DNA of 11,582 nucleotides. Source: an uncultured Bacteroidales bacterium. Its GTDB lineage: Bacteria; Bacteroidota; Bacteroidia; Bacteroidales; UBA932. Of this stretch, positions 982 to 7,017 are shown in pieces (within the stretch, counting starts at the first letter, position 1; the number at the start of each line of letters is the position of its first letter). Made by a program: the position numbers and the translations under genes. Below the pieces are notes generated by a model, which was not told the DNA's origin, did not search any database, and saw only the letters and a program-made list of their open reading frames with translations. The stretch lies in assembly GCA_946406275.1 (NCBI GenBank), contig CAMJJZ010000034.1:1-11582 (forward strand), written 5' to 3'.

Positions 982-2891
982 GCAGGCGCAAGAGCGAAAT
1001 ACAGGACACCATAGAAAACCGCGATAGAATACACGTGGTTATGTTCTTCCTGTCCATTCTGTTCCTTGCCCTGGGAGCTTTCATCATGGTGAAGATAGTG
1101 CAGATACAGACTGGATACCACGTGGACGGCCGTGTGGTGAACCTGTTCCGTACCACCGTCCAAAAGCACGTGGACAAGCCCGTGAGAGGCCGCATCCTGG
1201 CAACCGACGGCCGTCCACTGGCAATATCGGCCCCATTGTACGACATCCACATGGACTGCACCGTACGCAAGCAGGAATACAAGGACAAGAACAACACTGA
1301 GGCGGAAGCCGCCTGGAGGGCAAAAGCCGGCGAGCTGGCAAAGAAGCTCTCCGCAGAGTTCCGCGACCGTAGCGCCGAAGACTACCTGAACGCAATCATC
1401 GGCGGACGCGAAAAAGGCTCCCGCTACCTTAAAATAAAGAATAACATAGACCTCACCACCCTGAACCGCATCAAGACCTTCCCGCTTTTCAACGAAGGTG
1501 CAAACAAGGGCGGCATGATAGTGGAGCGCCACGAGGAACGCATCTATCCGTACGATTCCCTGGCCCGCCGCACCATAGGCTATGTTAAGGAAAGCAACCG
1601 CATTGGCCTGGAATCCAGCTTCGACCACGTCCTCCACGGCCGCGAGGGCTACGAGTGGCGCCGCGTAACGGACCGCAAGACCTGGATCCGCGACATAGAC
1701 TCCGCCAGCGTAAAGGTCCTTGACGGGGACGATATCCGCACCACCCTCAACGTGGACTTCCAGGACATTGCCGATAAAGCCCTCCGTGCCCAGATCCAGG
1801 CCGATGACGAGGTCCGCGCAGGCATCTGCATAATCATGGAGGCAAAGACCGGCGCCATCCGCGCAATGGTGAACCTCTCCCGCGGCGACACCCCCCAGAC
1901 GGTGCTCTGGGAAAGGGACAACCTCACCCTCCGCGAGGTTGGAGAGCAGGGCTCCGTTATGAAGACCGTCACACTTGTATCCCTTGTGGAAGACGGTTAC
2001 GTGAAGACCCTTGACCAGACCCTGCCCACCAACAACGGCTTCGTTCCCGGCGGTTACAACCAGGACGTTCACATCCTGGACTACCAGAGGGAAACCGGCC
2101 GCAGGGACATAACCGTGATGCACGGCTTTGAAATATCGTCCAACTACGTGTTCACCTGGCTGGCGGAGAACTACTACGGCAAGAAGCCGGAGGAGATGTT
2201 CGACCACATCTACTCCTACCGCTTCGGAGAGCCCTTCGACTTTGACATAAGCGGAATGGGCACGCCGGTAGTGAATCGTCCCGGAACTGCAGGATGGTCA
2301 AAGACCACCCTGGGAACTACGGCCTACGGCTACAGCATGGCCGTGACTCCCCTGCACGTGGCCACCTTCTACAACGCCCTGGCAAACAAGGGCAGGATGA
2401 TGAAGCCTTACCTGGTGGAGAGCATCGAGAAGGACGGAAAAGTTCTCAAGCGTTACGATCCTTCCGTGCTGAACAGCAGTATCTGCTCCCCCGCCACCGC
2501 CGACACCGTTACCCGCGCGCTACGCGCCGTGGTTAACGAAGGTACCGCCACCCGCCTCCGCAGCGCCAAGATGGCCGTCGCAGGAAAGACCGGCACCGCC
2601 CGCGTGGTCCTTTCTCCGGAAGAGAGAGGCGGCAGCAAAGACCCGTACAGCGACGCCTACGGCAGAAAGAAGTTCCAGGGAACCTTCGTTGGATTCTTCC
2701 CGGCCGATGACCCCAAATATACCATACTGGTCACCGTTTATTCCTATCCTTCCCACCGTAACTTCTACGGCGGAACCAAACCGGCACTGGCCGTGAGGGA
2801 TATCGTAGACCAGCTTTACGCACTTGACCCGGACTGGCGCCCGGAACTGCATCCCACCGCCTCCGTCCCTAACATGACAGCCCAGAAATGA
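978..2891 (+). CDS. ftsI: Septal peptidoglycan transpeptidase FtsI (class B PBP, PBP3)
   Basis: FtsI cross-links septal peptidoglycan with its SEDS partner FtsW. The 637-residue product has a short cytoplasmic tail, one membrane helix (about 19-41), the PBP dimerisation domain starting at RGRILATDGRPLA (70-82), and a transpeptidase domain with all three catalytic motifs: SVMK with nucleophile S326 and K329, SSN (387-389) and KTG (537-539). The residues before the nucleophile read EQGS instead of the common EPGS. The protein ends soon after the transpeptidase domain with VPNMTAQK. From family knowledge, Bacteroides FtsI homologues are about 700 residues and carry a C-terminal PASTA domain that typically begins with a VPN-like motif, so this copy looks shortened. 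It overlaps the ftsL-like gene and murE by 4 nt each (ATGA), indicating translational coupling. Confidence 0.96.
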   Translation: MSRRKSEIQDTIENRDRIHVVMFFLSILFLALGAFIMVKIVQIQTGYHVDGRVVNLFRTTVQKHVDKPVRGRILATDGRPLAISAPLYDIHMDCTVRKQEYKDKNNTEAEAAWRAKAGELAKKLSAEFRDRSAEDYLNAIIGGREKGSRYLKIKNNIDLTTLNRIKTFPLFNEGANKGGMIVERHEERIYPYDSLARRTIGYVKESNRIGLESSFDHVLHGREGYEWRRVTDRKTWIRDIDSASVKVLDGDDIRTTLNVDFQDIADKALRAQIQADDEVRAGICIIMEAKTGAIRAMVNLSRGDTPQTVLWERDNLTLREVGEQGSVMKTVTLVSLVEDGYVKTLDQTLPTNNGFVPGGYNQDVHILDYQRETGRRDITVMHGFEISSNYVFTWLAENYYGKKPEEMFDHIYSYRFGEPFDFDISGMGTPVVNRPGTAGWSKTTLGTTAYGYSMAVTPLHVATFYNALANKGRMMKPYLVESIEKDGKVLKRYDPSVLNSSICSPATADTVTRALRAVVNEGTATRLRSAKMAVAGKTGTARVVLSPEERGGSKDPYSDAYGRKKFQGTFVGFFPADDPKYTILVTVYSYPSHRNFYGGTKPALAVRDIVDQLYALDPDWRPELHPTASVPNMTAQK

Positions 2892-4312
2892 ACTACAGAG
2901 ATTTCACACTCATTACCGCCGATTCCAGGAAAGTGATTCCCGGAGCGCTGTTCGTTGCCATCAAGGGTTACGCCAGTGACGGCCACGATTATATTCAGGC
3001 TGCCATTGAGAAGGGAGCGAAGGGGGTGATTTGTGAGCACATGCCGGATGAGATTCCCGGGACAAGCCCGAGAATGACGGGCGACGTAGAGTTCGAAGTT
3101 GTGGAGAATAGCAGGGCGGCACTGGCAATTGCGGCGGATGAGTTTTACGGACATCCTTCAAGGAAACTGAAGCTTGTGGGAATTACCGGAACTAACGGAA
3201 AAACCACCACGGTGACGCTTCTGTACAGGCTTTTCATGGGAATGGGCTACAACTGCGGACTGCTTTCCACAATAGCCAATTATGTGGGAACCGAGCGCTT
3301 GGAAACTGACAACACCACCGCAGATCCCGTCACTATCAATTCCCTCATGGCCCGTATGGTGGAAAAGGGATGCGAATACTGCTTCATGGAGGTGAGCTCC
3401 ATAGGAGTGGAACAGGACCGCGTGAAAGGCCTTCACTTTGCCCTGGGCATCTTCTCCAACCTCACCCACGACCATCTGGACTACCACAAGACCTTCGCAG
3501 AGTATCTCCGTTGCAAGAAACTCTTCTTCGACACCCTGCCCAAGACCGCGGTAGCCCTCATAAATACTGACGATAAAAACGGCCCCGTAATGGTGCAGAA
3601 CACCGCCGCTAAGGTTGAAACCTACTCCGTGAAGGGCCTTGCGGACCACACCGCCCGCGTGCTGGAGCAGAGCTTCGACGGCATGCTCCTGAAGATTGAC
3701 GGAACAGACGTATGGTGCCGCCTCATTGGCGAGCACAACGCCTACAACCTCTTGGCAATCTACAGCGCAGCCGTGTGCCTCGGCCTTGGCAAGGAAGAGA
3801 CCCTCACCGCCCTTTCCGCCCTGGAGCAGGCTCCTGGAAGGCTGGAGAACATGCGCGGTCCCAAGGGCATATCCGTAGTAGTGGATTACGCGCACACGCC
3901 CGACGCCATGGAGAACGTCCTCAAGACTCTCCGCGCCATTGCCCCGGAAAGGCAGCTTACCTGCCTGTTCGGCTGCGGTGGAGACCGAGACCGCACCAAG
4001 CGCCCGGAGATGGCCCAGGTTGCGGAGAAGCTGGCCGACCGCATAATCGTCACATCCGACAATCCCCGCACGGAGGACCCTCAGGCAATTATTGACGAGA
4101 TTCTTCGCGGCCTGTCCCCCGCCGCCATGGCAAAGACCCTGGTGATTGCCGACAGGCGCGAAGCCATCCGCACCGCAATCATCACCGCAAAGGAGAACGG
4201 GACGGTGCTGCTGGCAGGAAAGGGGCATGAGACGTACCAGATAATCGGGAAGGAGAAGAGACATTTTGACGAGAAGGAGATAGTTAAAGAGGTTTTTTGC
4301 ATTATGAATTAG
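2888..4312 (+). CDS. murE: UDP-MurNAc-L-Ala-D-Glu:meso-diaminopimelate ligase MurE, with in-frame repeat insertion
   Basis: MurE adds the third stem-peptide residue to UDP-MurNAc-dipeptide, using ATP, in the cytoplasm. The 474-residue protein shows the N-terminal ADSR...GALFVAIKG...DGHDY motif of domain 1, the ATP-binding P-loop GTNGKTT (101-107), the likely carbamylated lysine K210 in the EYLRCK context, and DNPR at 391-394. DNPR is the signature of meso-diaminopimelate-adding enzymes. Two oddities stand out. The N-terminus is short (DSR at residues 12-14, about 15 residues earlier than in related enzymes), and an in-frame TAA at 2870 with no start codon between rules out a longer start. Residues 55-64 (EIPGTSPRMT) are encoded exactly by a 30-nt palindromic repeat that recurs after the gene. 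The stop TAG shares its G with that second copy. Confidence 0.96.
   Translation: MNYRDFTLITADSRKVIPGALFVAIKGYASDGHDYIQAAIEKGAKGVICEHMPDEIPGTSPRMTGDVEFEVVENSRAALAIAADEFYGHPSRKLKLVGITGTNGKTTTVTLLYRLFMGMGYNCGLLSTIANYVGTERLETDNTTADPVTINSLMARMVEKGCEYCFMEVSSIGVEQDRVKGLHFALGIFSNLTHDHLDYHKTFAEYLRCKKLFFDTLPKTAVALINTDDKNGPVMVQNTAAKVETYSVKGLADHTARVLEQSFDGMLLKIDGTDVWCRLIGEHNAYNLLAIYSAAVCLGLGKEETLTALSALEQAPGRLENMRGPKGISVVVDYAHTPDAMENVLKTLRAIAPERQLTCLFGCGGDRDRTKRPEMAQVAEKLADRIIVTSDNPRTEDPQAIIDEILRGLSPAAMAKTLVIADRREAIRTAIITAKENGTVLLAGKGHETYQIIGKEKRHFDEKEIVKEVFCIMN
3050..3079 (+). repeat. 30-nt palindromic repeat, copy 1, in frame inside murE
   Basis: This copy matches copy 2 (4312-4341) at all 30 bases. 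It consists of GAG, a left arm ATTCCCGGG (3053-3061), a loop ACAAG (3062-3066), a right arm CCCGAGAAT (3067-3075) and GACG. The 9-bp arms pair except for a central C-A opposition, which is G-T on the other strand. It starts on a murE codon boundary and is ten codons long, so the frame is kept. It lies between two predicted beta strands of the UDP-binding domain (GVICEHMP and EFEVVENS), at a point where related MurE proteins have a shorter linker. The flanking bases on both sides differ from those of copy 2. A mobile or spreading palindrome inserted into a tolerant loop is the best reading. Confidence 0.9.
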
Positions 4313-4341
4313 AGATTCCCGGGACAAGCCCGAGAATGACG
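4312..4341 (+). repeat. 30-nt palindromic repeat, copy 2, murE/mraY junction
   Basis: This copy is identical to copy 1 within murE and has the same orientation. The left arm is 4315-4323, the loop 4324-4328 and the right arm 4329-4337. Its first G is the last base of the murE stop codon TAG. It is followed by a 10-nt A/T-rich spacer and the mraY ATG at 4352, so the junction consists of little else. There is no T-tract after the hairpin, so it is not an intrinsic terminator. In mRNA the hairpin would sit just upstream of the mraY initiation region. Confidence 0.9.
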
Positions 4342-4351
4342 TTATAAAGAT

Positions 4352-5644
4352 ATGATTTACCATCTGTTCCAATATTTAGAGAAGGCGGGGGTGGATTTCC
4401 CCGGAATAGGTCTGATGCATTACCTGAGCTTCAGGGCAATGCTGGCGGCGGTTACAGCTGTGCTTATGAGCATGCTGGTGGGCAAGAAGATTATCCGCTG
4501 GCTGCAGAGCAAGCAGATTGGAGAGACCGTGCGCGACCTTGGCCTTGAAGGTCAGATCCAGAAGAAGGGCACTCCCACCATGGGCGGAATCATCATCATC
4601 CTGTCCATCATGACCGGCGTGCTCCTGTTCTGCGACCTCACCAACATCTATGTGAAGCTCCTTGTAGCGGCCACCATCTGGTGCGGCGCCCTGGGCTTTA
4701 CGGACGACTACATCAAGGTGTTCAAGAAGCGCAAGGAAGGCATGTCCGAAAAGGGTAAGCTTCTGGGACAGATAGTATTGGGATTTATAGTCGGCCTCAC
4801 CGTTTGGATGAGTCCGGACATCGTTGTCCGTGAGAAAGTGGAAGTCAAGGAGAGCGTGGAGCGCACCCTTGAGAGCGAAACCACCGTTACCACGGGACGA
4901 TATGTAAGTGAGGATGTGGTTAAAAGCACCAAGACGACCATCCCCTTCGTTAAGAACCATGAGTTTGACTACCGCTGGCTCTCCCCCGTTAAGGGAGTCT
5001 GGGGTTGGTACGCGAAGTGGGCCATCTACGTGCTCATGATCATCGTCGTCATAACCGCCTGCTCTAACGGCACCAACCTTACTGACGGGTTGGACGGCCT
5101 GGCGGCGGGAACATCAGCAATAGTTGGAGTGGTGCTCGGCATCCTGGCATGGCTGGGGGGCAACCTCATCGACTCCAATTATTTGAACATTATGTACATT
5201 CCGGGATCCGGAGAGATAGCCATCTTCATGAGTGCCTTCGTAGGCGCCCTCATAGGCTTCCTCTGGTACAACTCGTTCCCCGCACAGGTGTTCATGGGGG
5301 ATACCGGAAGTCTCACTATAGGCGGAATCATAGGTGTAAGCGCCGTTCTCATGCGAAAGGAGCTCCTTATTCCGCTGCTTTGCGGCATTTTCTTCGTGGA
5401 GAGCCTCTCCGTCCTTATCCAGAGGGTCTATTTCAAGGCTACCCGCAAGAAGTACGGCCAGGGCCGCCGCGTCTGGAGCATGACACCGCTCCACCACCAC
5501 TACCAGGACAAACCCGCCCCTGCCGGTGCGGTCATCTTCCCCAAGCCCGTCCCGGCACAGCACGAGGCAAAGATTACGGTGAGGTTCTGGATTGTTGGAA
5601 TTATCCTGGCTGTAAGTACGTTAGCATTACTTAAACTTAGATAG
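4352..5644 (+). CDS. mraY: Phospho-N-acetylmuramoyl-pentapeptide transferase MraY
   Basis: MraY transfers phospho-MurNAc-pentapeptide from UDP to undecaprenyl phosphate at the inner membrane, making lipid I. The 430-residue polytopic protein has the family motifs in order: KKGTPTMGG (71-79), the catalytic TDDYIK (D118, D119), TNLTDGLDGLA (241-251), FMGDTGS (314-320) and PLHHHYQ (379-385). A long periplasmic loop (about 154-220) explains most of the extra length over the 360-residue E. coli enzyme and is usual in Bacteroidota. After HHHYQ there is a proline/alanine-rich stretch (about 386-403) before the conserved KITVRFW segment, longer than the short link in the Bacteroides enzymes I know. 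The last membrane helix ends at LLKLR. The start ATG at 4352 fits the family's N-terminus (YHLFQYLE...DFPG). Palindromic repeats flank the gene on both sides. Confidence 0.97.
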   Translation: MIYHLFQYLEKAGVDFPGIGLMHYLSFRAMLAAVTAVLMSMLVGKKIIRWLQSKQIGETVRDLGLEGQIQKKGTPTMGGIIIILSIMTGVLLFCDLTNIYVKLLVAATIWCGALGFTDDYIKVFKKRKEGMSEKGKLLGQIVLGFIVGLTVWMSPDIVVREKVEVKESVERTLESETTVTTGRYVSEDVVKSTKTTIPFVKNHEFDYRWLSPVKGVWGWYAKWAIYVLMIIVVITACSNGTNLTDGLDGLAAGTSAIVGVVLGILAWLGGNLIDSNYLNIMYIPGSGEIAIFMSAFVGALIGFLWYNSFPAQVFMGDTGSLTIGGIIGVSAVLMRKELLIPLLCGIFFVESLSVLIQRVYFKATRKKYGQGRRVWSMTPLHHHYQDKPAPAGAVIFPKPVPAQHEAKITVRFWIVGIILAVSTLALLKLR

Positions 5645-5673
5645 AGACCTCCGGAACAAGTCCGAAGGTGACG
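5644..5673 (+). repeat. 30-nt palindromic repeat, copy 3 (diverged), mraY/murD junction
   Basis: This copy aligns without gaps to copies 1 and 2, with 22 of 30 bases identical. The arms are ACCTCCGGA (5647-5655) and TCCGAAGGT (5661-5669) around the unchanged loop ACAAG (5656-5660), followed by the unchanged GACG. All eight differences lie in the arms and form four compensating pairs, while the central C-A mismatch stays. As in copy 2, the first G is the last base of the upstream stop codon (mraY TAG). A 9-nt spacer separates the repeat from the murD ATG at 5683. No T-tract follows, so it is not a terminator. Confidence 0.82.
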
Positions 5674-5682
5674 AGAGAAATT

Positions 5683-7017
5683 ATGTCAAGAGTAGTTGTA
5701 TTGGGAGGCGCAGAAAGTGGAGTAGGCGCCGCAGTATTGGCAAAAGTGAAAGGTTACGATGTGTTCCTTAGCGACAAGGGGCAGATCAAGGATGAGTATG
5801 CAGAGCAGCTGCGCAAATGGGAGATCCCGTTCGAGCAGGGTCAGCATTCGGAAAATCTTATCCTGAATGCGGACGAAGTGGTGAAGAGCCCAGGCATCCC
5901 CGGGACCGTTCCCATGGTGCAGAAGATCCGTGAAAAGGGCATCAAGGTTGTGTCTGAGATAGAATTCGCAAGCCGTTTTGACTCTGCGAAGAAGATCTGC
6001 ATCACCGGATCCAACGGTAAGACCACCACCACTTCCCTCATATATTATCTGATGCAGAACGCCGGCCTCAACGTGGGCCTTGGCGGCAACATAGGCAAAT
6101 CCTATGCATACCAGGTGGCAACCGAGCACTTCGACTACTATGTCCTTGAGATCTCCAGCTTCCAGCTTGACGATATATACGATTTCCGTCCGGACATCGC
6201 CATCATAACCAACATCACCCCGGACCACCTGGACCGCTACGACCACAACATGGAGAACTACGTTGCGGCCAAGTTCAACATTACCAGGAACCTCCGTCCG
6301 GACGACTGCTTCATATTCGACTCCGACGACTCCATTACCGTTGGACACTTGTCCAAGATTGTGCTTCGATGCAAAATGCTGCCCTTCTCACAGAAGGAGG
6401 AAGTTAAGCAGGGCGCCTTCTTGAAGGATGACAAGATAGTCCTGCGTTATGAGAAGGAAGAGACCGATATCTTCCTCCAGGACCTTGCCCTTGGCGGAAA
6501 GCACAACATCTACAACTCCATGGCGGCAGCCCTGGCAGCAAAGGCCGCGGGCATAGAGAACGACGTTATCCGCCGTTCCCTGGCCACCTTCCAACCCATC
6601 GAGCACCGTCTGGAGCCCGTCCTGAGCATTAAGGACGTACTTTATATCAACGACTCCAAGGCCACCAACATAGACAGCGCCTGGTACGCTCTGGAATGCC
6701 AGAAGCGTCCAGTGGTGTGGATCGTAGGCGGCACTGACAAGGGTAACGACTACTCCATCCTGAACAAGCTTGTGAAGGAGAAGGTAAAAGGCATCGTGTG
6801 CCTTGGCGTAGACAACAGCAAGATCCACGCAGCCTTTGGCGGCATGGTCAGCAACATGGTGGATGCCCTGAGTGCAGAGGAAGCCGTACAGAAGGCCGCC
6901 GCAATGGCCCAGGCCGGCGACGTGGTGCTCCTGAGCCCCTGCTGCGCCAGCTTCGACCTGTTCAAGAACTACGAAGACCGCGGAGAGAAATTCAAAGCAG
7001 CCGTAAGAAAGCTTTAA
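5683..7017 (+). CDS. murD: UDP-MurNAc-L-alanine:D-glutamate ligase MurD
   Basis: MurD adds D-glutamate to UDP-MurNAc-L-Ala in the cytoplasm, using ATP. From ATG 5683 the protein is 444 residues and begins MSRVVVLGGAESGVGAA, the nucleotide-fold start expected for Bacteroidota MurD. The P-loop GSNGKTTTT is at 109-117. NITPDHLDRY, the GKHNIYN motif of the central domain, NDSKATN, and near the end SPCCASFDLFKNYEDRG all follow in family order. An in-frame GTG at 5668 would add five residues (MTREI), but it lies in the right arm of the palindromic repeat and the extension has no counterpart in the family, so ATG 5683 is preferred. No clear Shine-Dalgarno sequence is present. ftsW starts 3 nt after the TAA stop. 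Confidence 0.96.
   Translation: MSRVVVLGGAESGVGAAVLAKVKGYDVFLSDKGQIKDEYAEQLRKWEIPFEQGQHSENLILNADEVVKSPGIPGTVPMVQKIREKGIKVVSEIEFASRFDSAKKICITGSNGKTTTTSLIYYLMQNAGLNVGLGGNIGKSYAYQVATEHFDYYVLEISSFQLDDIYDFRPDIAIITNITPDHLDRYDHNMENYVAAKFNITRNLRPDDCFIFDSDDSITVGHLSKIVLRCKMLPFSQKEEVKQGAFLKDDKIVLRYEKEETDIFLQDLALGGKHNIYNSMAAALAAKAAGIENDVIRRSLATFQPIEHRLEPVLSIKDVLYINDSKATNIDSAWYALECQKRPVVWIVGGTDKGNDYSILNKLVKEKVKGIVCLGVDNSKIHAAFGGMVSNMVDALSAEEAVQKAAAMAQAGDVVLLSPCCASFDLFKNYEDRGEKFKAAVRKL

Follow-up and report, generated by a model that had tools for sequence, protein, structure and literature searches.

The window analyzed here, a stretch of 11,582 nucleotides from an uncultured Bacteroidales bacterium, carries a cell-wall gene cluster in which murE, mraY, murD, murG and murC were named by NCBIfam models; the ftsI-, ftsW- and rsmH-like open reading frames (ORFs) that flank the cluster are presumed assignments that rest in part on position. 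The murE gene (2888–4312, plus strand) is an intact ORF of 474 amino acids, and its product scored 589 bits against NCBIfam model NF001126 (cut-off 373). MurE is an essential ligase. Further downstream, the mraY product (4352–5641, 430 amino acids) matched TIGR00445 in two separate stretches, which suggests a central insertion. Among the best 80 of 207 loci, the nearest MurE was found in a rumen Bacteroidales MAG (locus L001; 93% identity in the best segment), and it is 96% identical to that of the window over 451 columns when the linker discussed below is left out. By their records, the named relatives are MAGs or assemblies of metagenomes; loci are given L numbers and genomes G numbers, with G001 denoting the genome of L001 and G002 that of the next nearest MAG (L058).

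The murE gene contains a 30-nucleotide palindromic repeat, GAGATTCCCGGGACAAGCCCGAGAATGACG (3050–3079, plus strand). An earlier reading of the DNA, made without database searches (the sequence-only reading), had proposed that the repeat starts on a codon boundary and encodes residues 55–64 exactly. Indeed, with murE starting at 2888, position 3050 opens codon 55, and the encoded peptide is EIPGTSPRMT. Two further copies lie in the window: one is identical (4312–4341), and the other is 73% identical (5644–5673). The presence of an exact 30-mer twice in 11.6 kb means that the repetition is not due to chance. Read on the minus strand, the unit at 3050–3079 comprises CGTC, a 9-nt arm beginning with AT, a 5-nt loop, a second 9-nt arm and CTC; the arms ATTCTCGGG and CCCGGGAAT enclose the loop CTTGT. 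The palindrome is thus genuine yet imperfect, its 9-bp stem including one G.T pair. The unit length is divisible by three, and only one of the six reading frames is closed. A functional RNA was considered as a reading of the hairpin and found no support: its stability in place was nothing unusual (z = -1.4; 17 of 200 shuffles were equally stable), and no Rfam model matched within the window at the gathering score.

To what class does this repeat belong? In the available text of Di Nocera et al. (2013, PMC3733652), CGTC-tagged REPs are described as having an unpaired tetranucleotide tag at one end (CGTC, or else TGTC or CCTC), an 8–9 bp stem starting with AT, a 4–5 nt loop and an unpaired 3-nt tail that is mostly CCA. 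The reverse complement of 3050–3079 opens with CGTC, and its stem (9 bp) and loop (5 nt) fall within the published ranges; the tail is present as CTC where most CGTC REPs have CCA. Judged by its tag, stem and loop, the 30-mer is a CGTC-tagged REP, i.e., an element of a known kind.

The second, identical REP (4312–4341, plus strand) occupies the spacer between murE and mraY and begins with the final G of the TAG codon that stops murE. In six of the ten loci compared at this position (L001, L002, L003, L004, L007 and L009), the murE stop and the mraY start overlap as ATGA, which represents an empty site. In the window and in L006 (L006:4958-4985), the spacer that follows the murE stop is made largely of REP, with different stems. 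The copy at 4312 is the cleanest comparison of empty and filled sites in the window, and REPs lying directly after the murE stop could alter translational coupling. The diverged, REP-like third copy (5644–5673, plus strand) is located in the mraY–murD spacer and likewise shares the final G of the stop codon (TAG) upstream of it. This copy overlaps a GTG at 5668 where murD might start; the ATG at 5683 is the likely start codon of that gene.

Copies of the element are dispersed in the closest relatives. A strict pattern, slightly degenerate and allowing at most two mismatches, was matched by 15 copies in G001 and five in G002; there were no matches in the other eight of the ten genomes searched, nor did the reversed control pattern yield any. 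When G001 was searched along with 60 relatives that did not include G002 (61 in all), copies of this pattern occurred in G001 only. Seven of the 20 copies in G001 and G002 are the exact 30-mer, and 11 fit the degenerate pattern without any mismatch (control, 0). These counts, together with the exact pair in the window, speak against a chance match or a convergent coding sequence. In favor of that explanation one can cite the shortness of the element and the native E-I-P-like start of the linker loop in some relatives, but we consider its probability to be practically nil.

With a generic pattern that retained the same ends, we recorded 33 matches in G001, 68 in G002, 20 in G005 and 38 in G006 (controls 0, 2, 0 and 2, respectively); a few starts with two fitting ends enter these counts twice. 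The pattern keeps its end motifs, GAGAT and ATGAC, constant. A further form, type B (GAGATCCTTCGCTC...), was present in seven of the eight genomes tested and absent from G001. From the generic and type-B matches, it appears that the ends are common across genomes while stems and loops vary both between and within them. Many dispersed copies, another hallmark of CGTC-tagged REPs, are thus seen in the relatives G001 and G002, from which we infer the copy number of the window's own genome.

The sequence-only reading had proposed a search of the proteome for other in-frame copies. Of the 20 strict copies in G001 and G002, eight are embedded in frame in ORFs that match a Pfam family. In G001/G002, these ORFs encode an A2M-like protein (Pfam A2M), a DNA alkylation repair protein (DNA_alkylation), a GH92 protein (Glyco_hydro_92), a DUF3575 protein (DUF3575) and the GMP synthase GuaA (GATase); the ATP synthase gamma subunit AtpG (ATP-synt) and MutL (MutL_C/DNA_mis_repair) contain copies in G001, and RsmH (MraW; Methyltransf_5) contains one in G002. 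With MurE included, the in-frame copies use three of the five open frames. The frame that gives EIPGTSPRMT-type peptides is found in MurE, the alkylation repair protein, MutL and GuaA; the DSRDKPEND-type frame occurs in RsmH and the DUF3575 protein, and the reverse, SFSGLSRES-type frame in AtpG, the A2M-like protein and GH92. Of the remaining 12 strict copies, one lies in an ORF without a Pfam match (L126), and the other 11 lie where there is no ORF longer than 90 amino acids or in short, end-placed or pre-start ORFs outside the Pfam scan. Eight of 20 is therefore a lower bound.

In MurE, the element falls in a hypervariable linker (3029–3103, plus strand; approximately residues 48–72) that joins a strand ending in VICE to the strand FEVVENS and that harbors REPs recurrently in relatives. 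In the 120 listed homologues (of 8000 scored), this segment may be missing altogether or reach about 60 residues, and it contains many repeat-like peptides. Five metagenomic homologues (P0023, P0041, P0055, P0073 and P0091) have linkers with a longer, PESSLRDPSH-type peptide, perhaps another inverted repeat family judging from the peptide. At the DNA level, the linker was read in 81 loci, i.e., the window and the best 80 of the 207 relatives; L054 is counted among them, its linker region being unalignable and labeled “none” in the tree analysis. The linker is lacking in 20 of the 81 rows (only five residues of the stretch are present; six of these rows were inspected), and this part of MurE is thus dispensable. 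Proteins without the whole linker, as in GAAAVVDGSR, include those of L017, L018, L020, L025 and L056, among others.

The sequence-only reading had held that MurE linkers are generally shorter than that of the window. Many of the Bacteroidales examined here bear out this expectation, as does 8f5d, the best PDB match, which is about six residues shorter at the linker. The expectation fails for another solved MurE, 1e8c, which we take to be the E. coli enzyme: 1e8c aligns with residues 49–66 without gaps and so has an equally long loop. Length alone is therefore no proof of insertion. Nor did we find the clean ten-residue insertion at residues 55–64 that had been proposed, either among the 120 listed homologues of 8000 or among the best 80 of 207 loci; instead, the linker is hypervariable, and L001 has another REP there. 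The same reading had named as counter-evidence that relatives, both near and remote, would all have alignable sequence of equal length devoid of the palindrome; this is likewise not what was observed inside the clade. Changes in linker length do not all derive from repeats: when three mismatches were allowed, the murE insert of L058 was found only once in G002 (itself) and not at all in G001 or G003.

How often has the linker received REPs? In the 710,635 bp examined, a looser detector, from which the counts for REP reuse are taken, yielded 43 REP-like matches. Fourteen of these fell in the 5,535 bp of linker (0.8% of the sequence), in 12 of the 81 loci (the window, L001, L004, L005, L006, L012, L037, L040, L049, L051, L052 and L080). 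The number expected in the linker by proportion is 0.33 (binomial 2e-19, uncorrected for kinship). On reversed sequence, the looser detector gave 10 matches, and about a quarter of the 43 may thus be due to chance; a stricter detector gave nine matches, three of them in the linker, with none in the control. Among 25 further loci, the detector added one more clear REP (L185); L187 and L203 looked decayed by eye, and the match in L184 repeats that of L012.

The linker REP of the window is in forward orientation. That of L001 is reversed, has a different stem and is read in a different frame, encoding KVIPGLTGDL; the two loci group together in the MurE tree with SH-aLRT support of 90 (99 with L058). 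The sisters L005 and L006 (support 100) have REPs of different classes. L004 and L005 have REPs at the same codon, with arms that differ yet are paired. L049 and L080 each contain a forward and a reverse REP, adjacent to one another, as does L185 by eye. The single insertion event envisaged by the sequence-only reading is thus the wrong picture, for the linker has been used repeatedly. On a quick MurE tree built without the linker, the presence of REPs requires at least eight changes, or 11 when orientation and class are included, counts that are blind to the distinction between gain and loss; label shuffles were often equally low (103 of 500 for type-B forward). The tree counts and shuffles would fit rapid turnover or scattered gain and are no proof of either.

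Could the clade have inherited one ancient MurE-linker hairpin whose arms then changed in concert, either through compensatory mutations or through conversion by other REPs of the genome? The pairing of different arms at the same codon in L004 and L005 is what such a history would produce, and conversion in place is possible for these two loci. The constant end motifs of the generic pattern agree with it as well, as does the partial clustering of type-B REPs in one clade (five forward and one reverse of 16 rows). A common ancestral hairpin does not readily accommodate the differences in orientation, stem and reading frame between the window and L001, however, or the different classes of the sisters L005 and L006; furthermore, no REP was detected in the linker of 69 of the 81 loci, and 20 rows have no linker at all. 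On balance, we judge this explanation to be quite unlikely.

The MurE linker is not alone in this behavior: in AtpG, MutL and RsmH, too, species differ in the stem, loop and orientation of the REPs that occupy the same linker. By the looser detector, and with the starting copies included (AtpG and MutL of G001, RsmH of G002), REPs occupy a loop of AtpG in five of 13 loci from 12 genomes, in both orientations (with more recognized by eye in L155, L161 and L165), the MutL linker in four of 12, and the RsmH loop in four of the 61 loci in which the motif could be located. In GuaA, a REP was found in one of nine aligned genomes, namely the starting copy; three of the 12 genomes were left out for having partial matches only, and G001 appears to keep only the left half. 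In MutL, the nearest relative is without the insert and also lacks neighboring residues, and the filled allele of GuaA shows a small net change in length. Insertion with local replacement fits the MutL and GuaA alleles better than pure insertion. REPs are also not the only repeats in these loops. A second, unrelated family with the core GGCCGATGC, matched 34 times in G008 and 15 times in G077 (controls 0 and 1, respectively), is present in the MurE loop of L011 and in the AtpG loop of G008 (L160). The AtpG of G004 (L164) has a loop stretch of 79 residues with a triplicated ASLGRNDNVP-type unit and further repeat-like sequence.

The concentration of REPs in a few loops raises the question of whether the linker is a true target site, favored by the insertion machinery for its DNA or for a REP already in place, as opposed to a site where selection filters random insertions. 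Such a preference would explain why the window and L006 have different REPs right behind the stop codon of murE, and also why REP lies beside REP in L049, L080 and, by eye, L185. On the other hand, the landing points and their neighboring bases vary among species, and the loops concerned vary in length anyway; a true target site is, in our estimation, unlikely. Selection of the inserted peptide or of the RNA hairpin for a function in MurE (activity, regulation or translation speed) would likewise account for the repeated use of a single site in an essential gene, a site that lies in the 5' portion of its ORF. What counts against this explanation is that the in-frame copies of the strict-pattern REP are read in three frames; reversed REPs, other repeats and the absence of the linker are all tolerated; and neither the fold statistics nor the Rfam search in the window, both reported above, singled out the hairpin. 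We therefore regard a selected function as very improbable.

A movement step calls for a look at transposases. PF01797 (Y1 transposase) was found in all 12 genomes searched, with 36 matches in total. We fetched 30 of these 36 loci with about 1.5 kb on each side: a REP was near the gene in two, at least 288 bp from the ORF, and no flanking RAYT adjoined a REP among the 30. For this family, the one transposase family searched, the elements thus show no transposase association, as is reported for CGTC REPs. As the REPs do not adjoin PF01797 genes, the movement step is one that we infer: REPs would insert at a site, or take the place of the sequence there, largely irrespective of what the target is. 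Those that land in folded cores would be removed by purifying selection, and those in permissive loops would survive, decaying by point change, partial deletion or duplication until later arrivals overwrite them. Through such survival and overwriting, REPs would keep supplying the loops with new sequence. If insertions into folded regions are selected against and those in variable loops tolerated, recurrence at the same loops would follow; no special target is needed. We consider it probable that a mobile CGTC-tagged REP landed in the length-tolerant MurE linker of this uncultured rumen Bacteroidales and that REPs recur in, decay in and replace each other within permissive loops.

The new aspect of these observations is that the same loops of housekeeping enzymes are reused by different REPs, even between sister MAGs. 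In the literature consulted, which was chiefly the freely accessible part, we found no description of REP reuse of one protein loop in Bacteroidales. Intragenic REPs have so far been catalogued mostly gene by gene. Because filled, inverted, different and absent alleles coexist in one linker of close relatives, they amount to datable events, and both the movement of CGTC REPs and the protein sequence that it creates become testable. To judge from these alleles, REPs seem to have supplied housekeeping proteins with new loop sequence over and over. Differences in loop length among core enzymes of rumen Bacteroidales can stem from selfish DNA rather than from adaptation, and such changes may affect marker-gene trees and protein models. 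A bolder proposal, which we advance tentatively and with some doubt, is that REPs are an active protein-diversifying force throughout this clade: a few loops of essential enzymes (MurE, AtpG, MutL and RsmH) might be standing landing pads where the turnover of REPs, by gain, inversion, stacking and loss, outpaces the divergence of species, perhaps by targeted single-strand insertion or by conversion that recognizes resident REPs.

How do these elements compare with known systems? With the GTAG REPs that accompany a RAYT (TnpA-REP), the 30-mer shares the short dispersed hairpin and an unpaired tetranucleotide tag. It differs in that the tag is CGTC and in that only two of the 30 PF01797 loci had a REP nearby, neither of them close to the ORF, an arrangement unlike that of a REPtron. 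The likeness to CGTC-tagged REPs extends from the tag, the AT-starting 9-bp stem, the 5-nt loop and the 3-nt tail to dispersal, intragenic copies and the lack of a flanking transposase gene. According to the available text of PMC3733652, those elements occur as many dispersed copies, some intragenic, in five phyla including Bacteroidetes; head-to-head dimers predominate among them, no transposase gene flanks them and no dedicated transposase is known. One same-site case is mentioned there, in recB of two Xanthomonas species. The elements described here depart from that pattern in the tail (CTC rather than CCA) and in the reuse of several housekeeping loops by different REPs across species.

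The sequence-only reading had also drawn a parallel with the Rickettsia palindromic elements (RPEs), and the parallel turned out to be closer than it supposed, since the CGTC-tagged super-family described in PMC3733652 takes in RPE-4 and RPE-6 (RPE-1 being separate). The likeness of the 30-mer to these elements rests on the tag and geometry as published there. RPEs are given as about 150 bp in the accessible text of a review, vs. 30 bp here, and their hosts, intracellular alphaproteobacteria, belong to a different phylum from the rumen Bacteroidales MAGs. While these features contrast, the two systems have in common the in-frame insertion into protein genes, seen here in MurE and in eight of the 20 strict copies, and, for RPE-4 and RPE-6, the CGTC tag itself.
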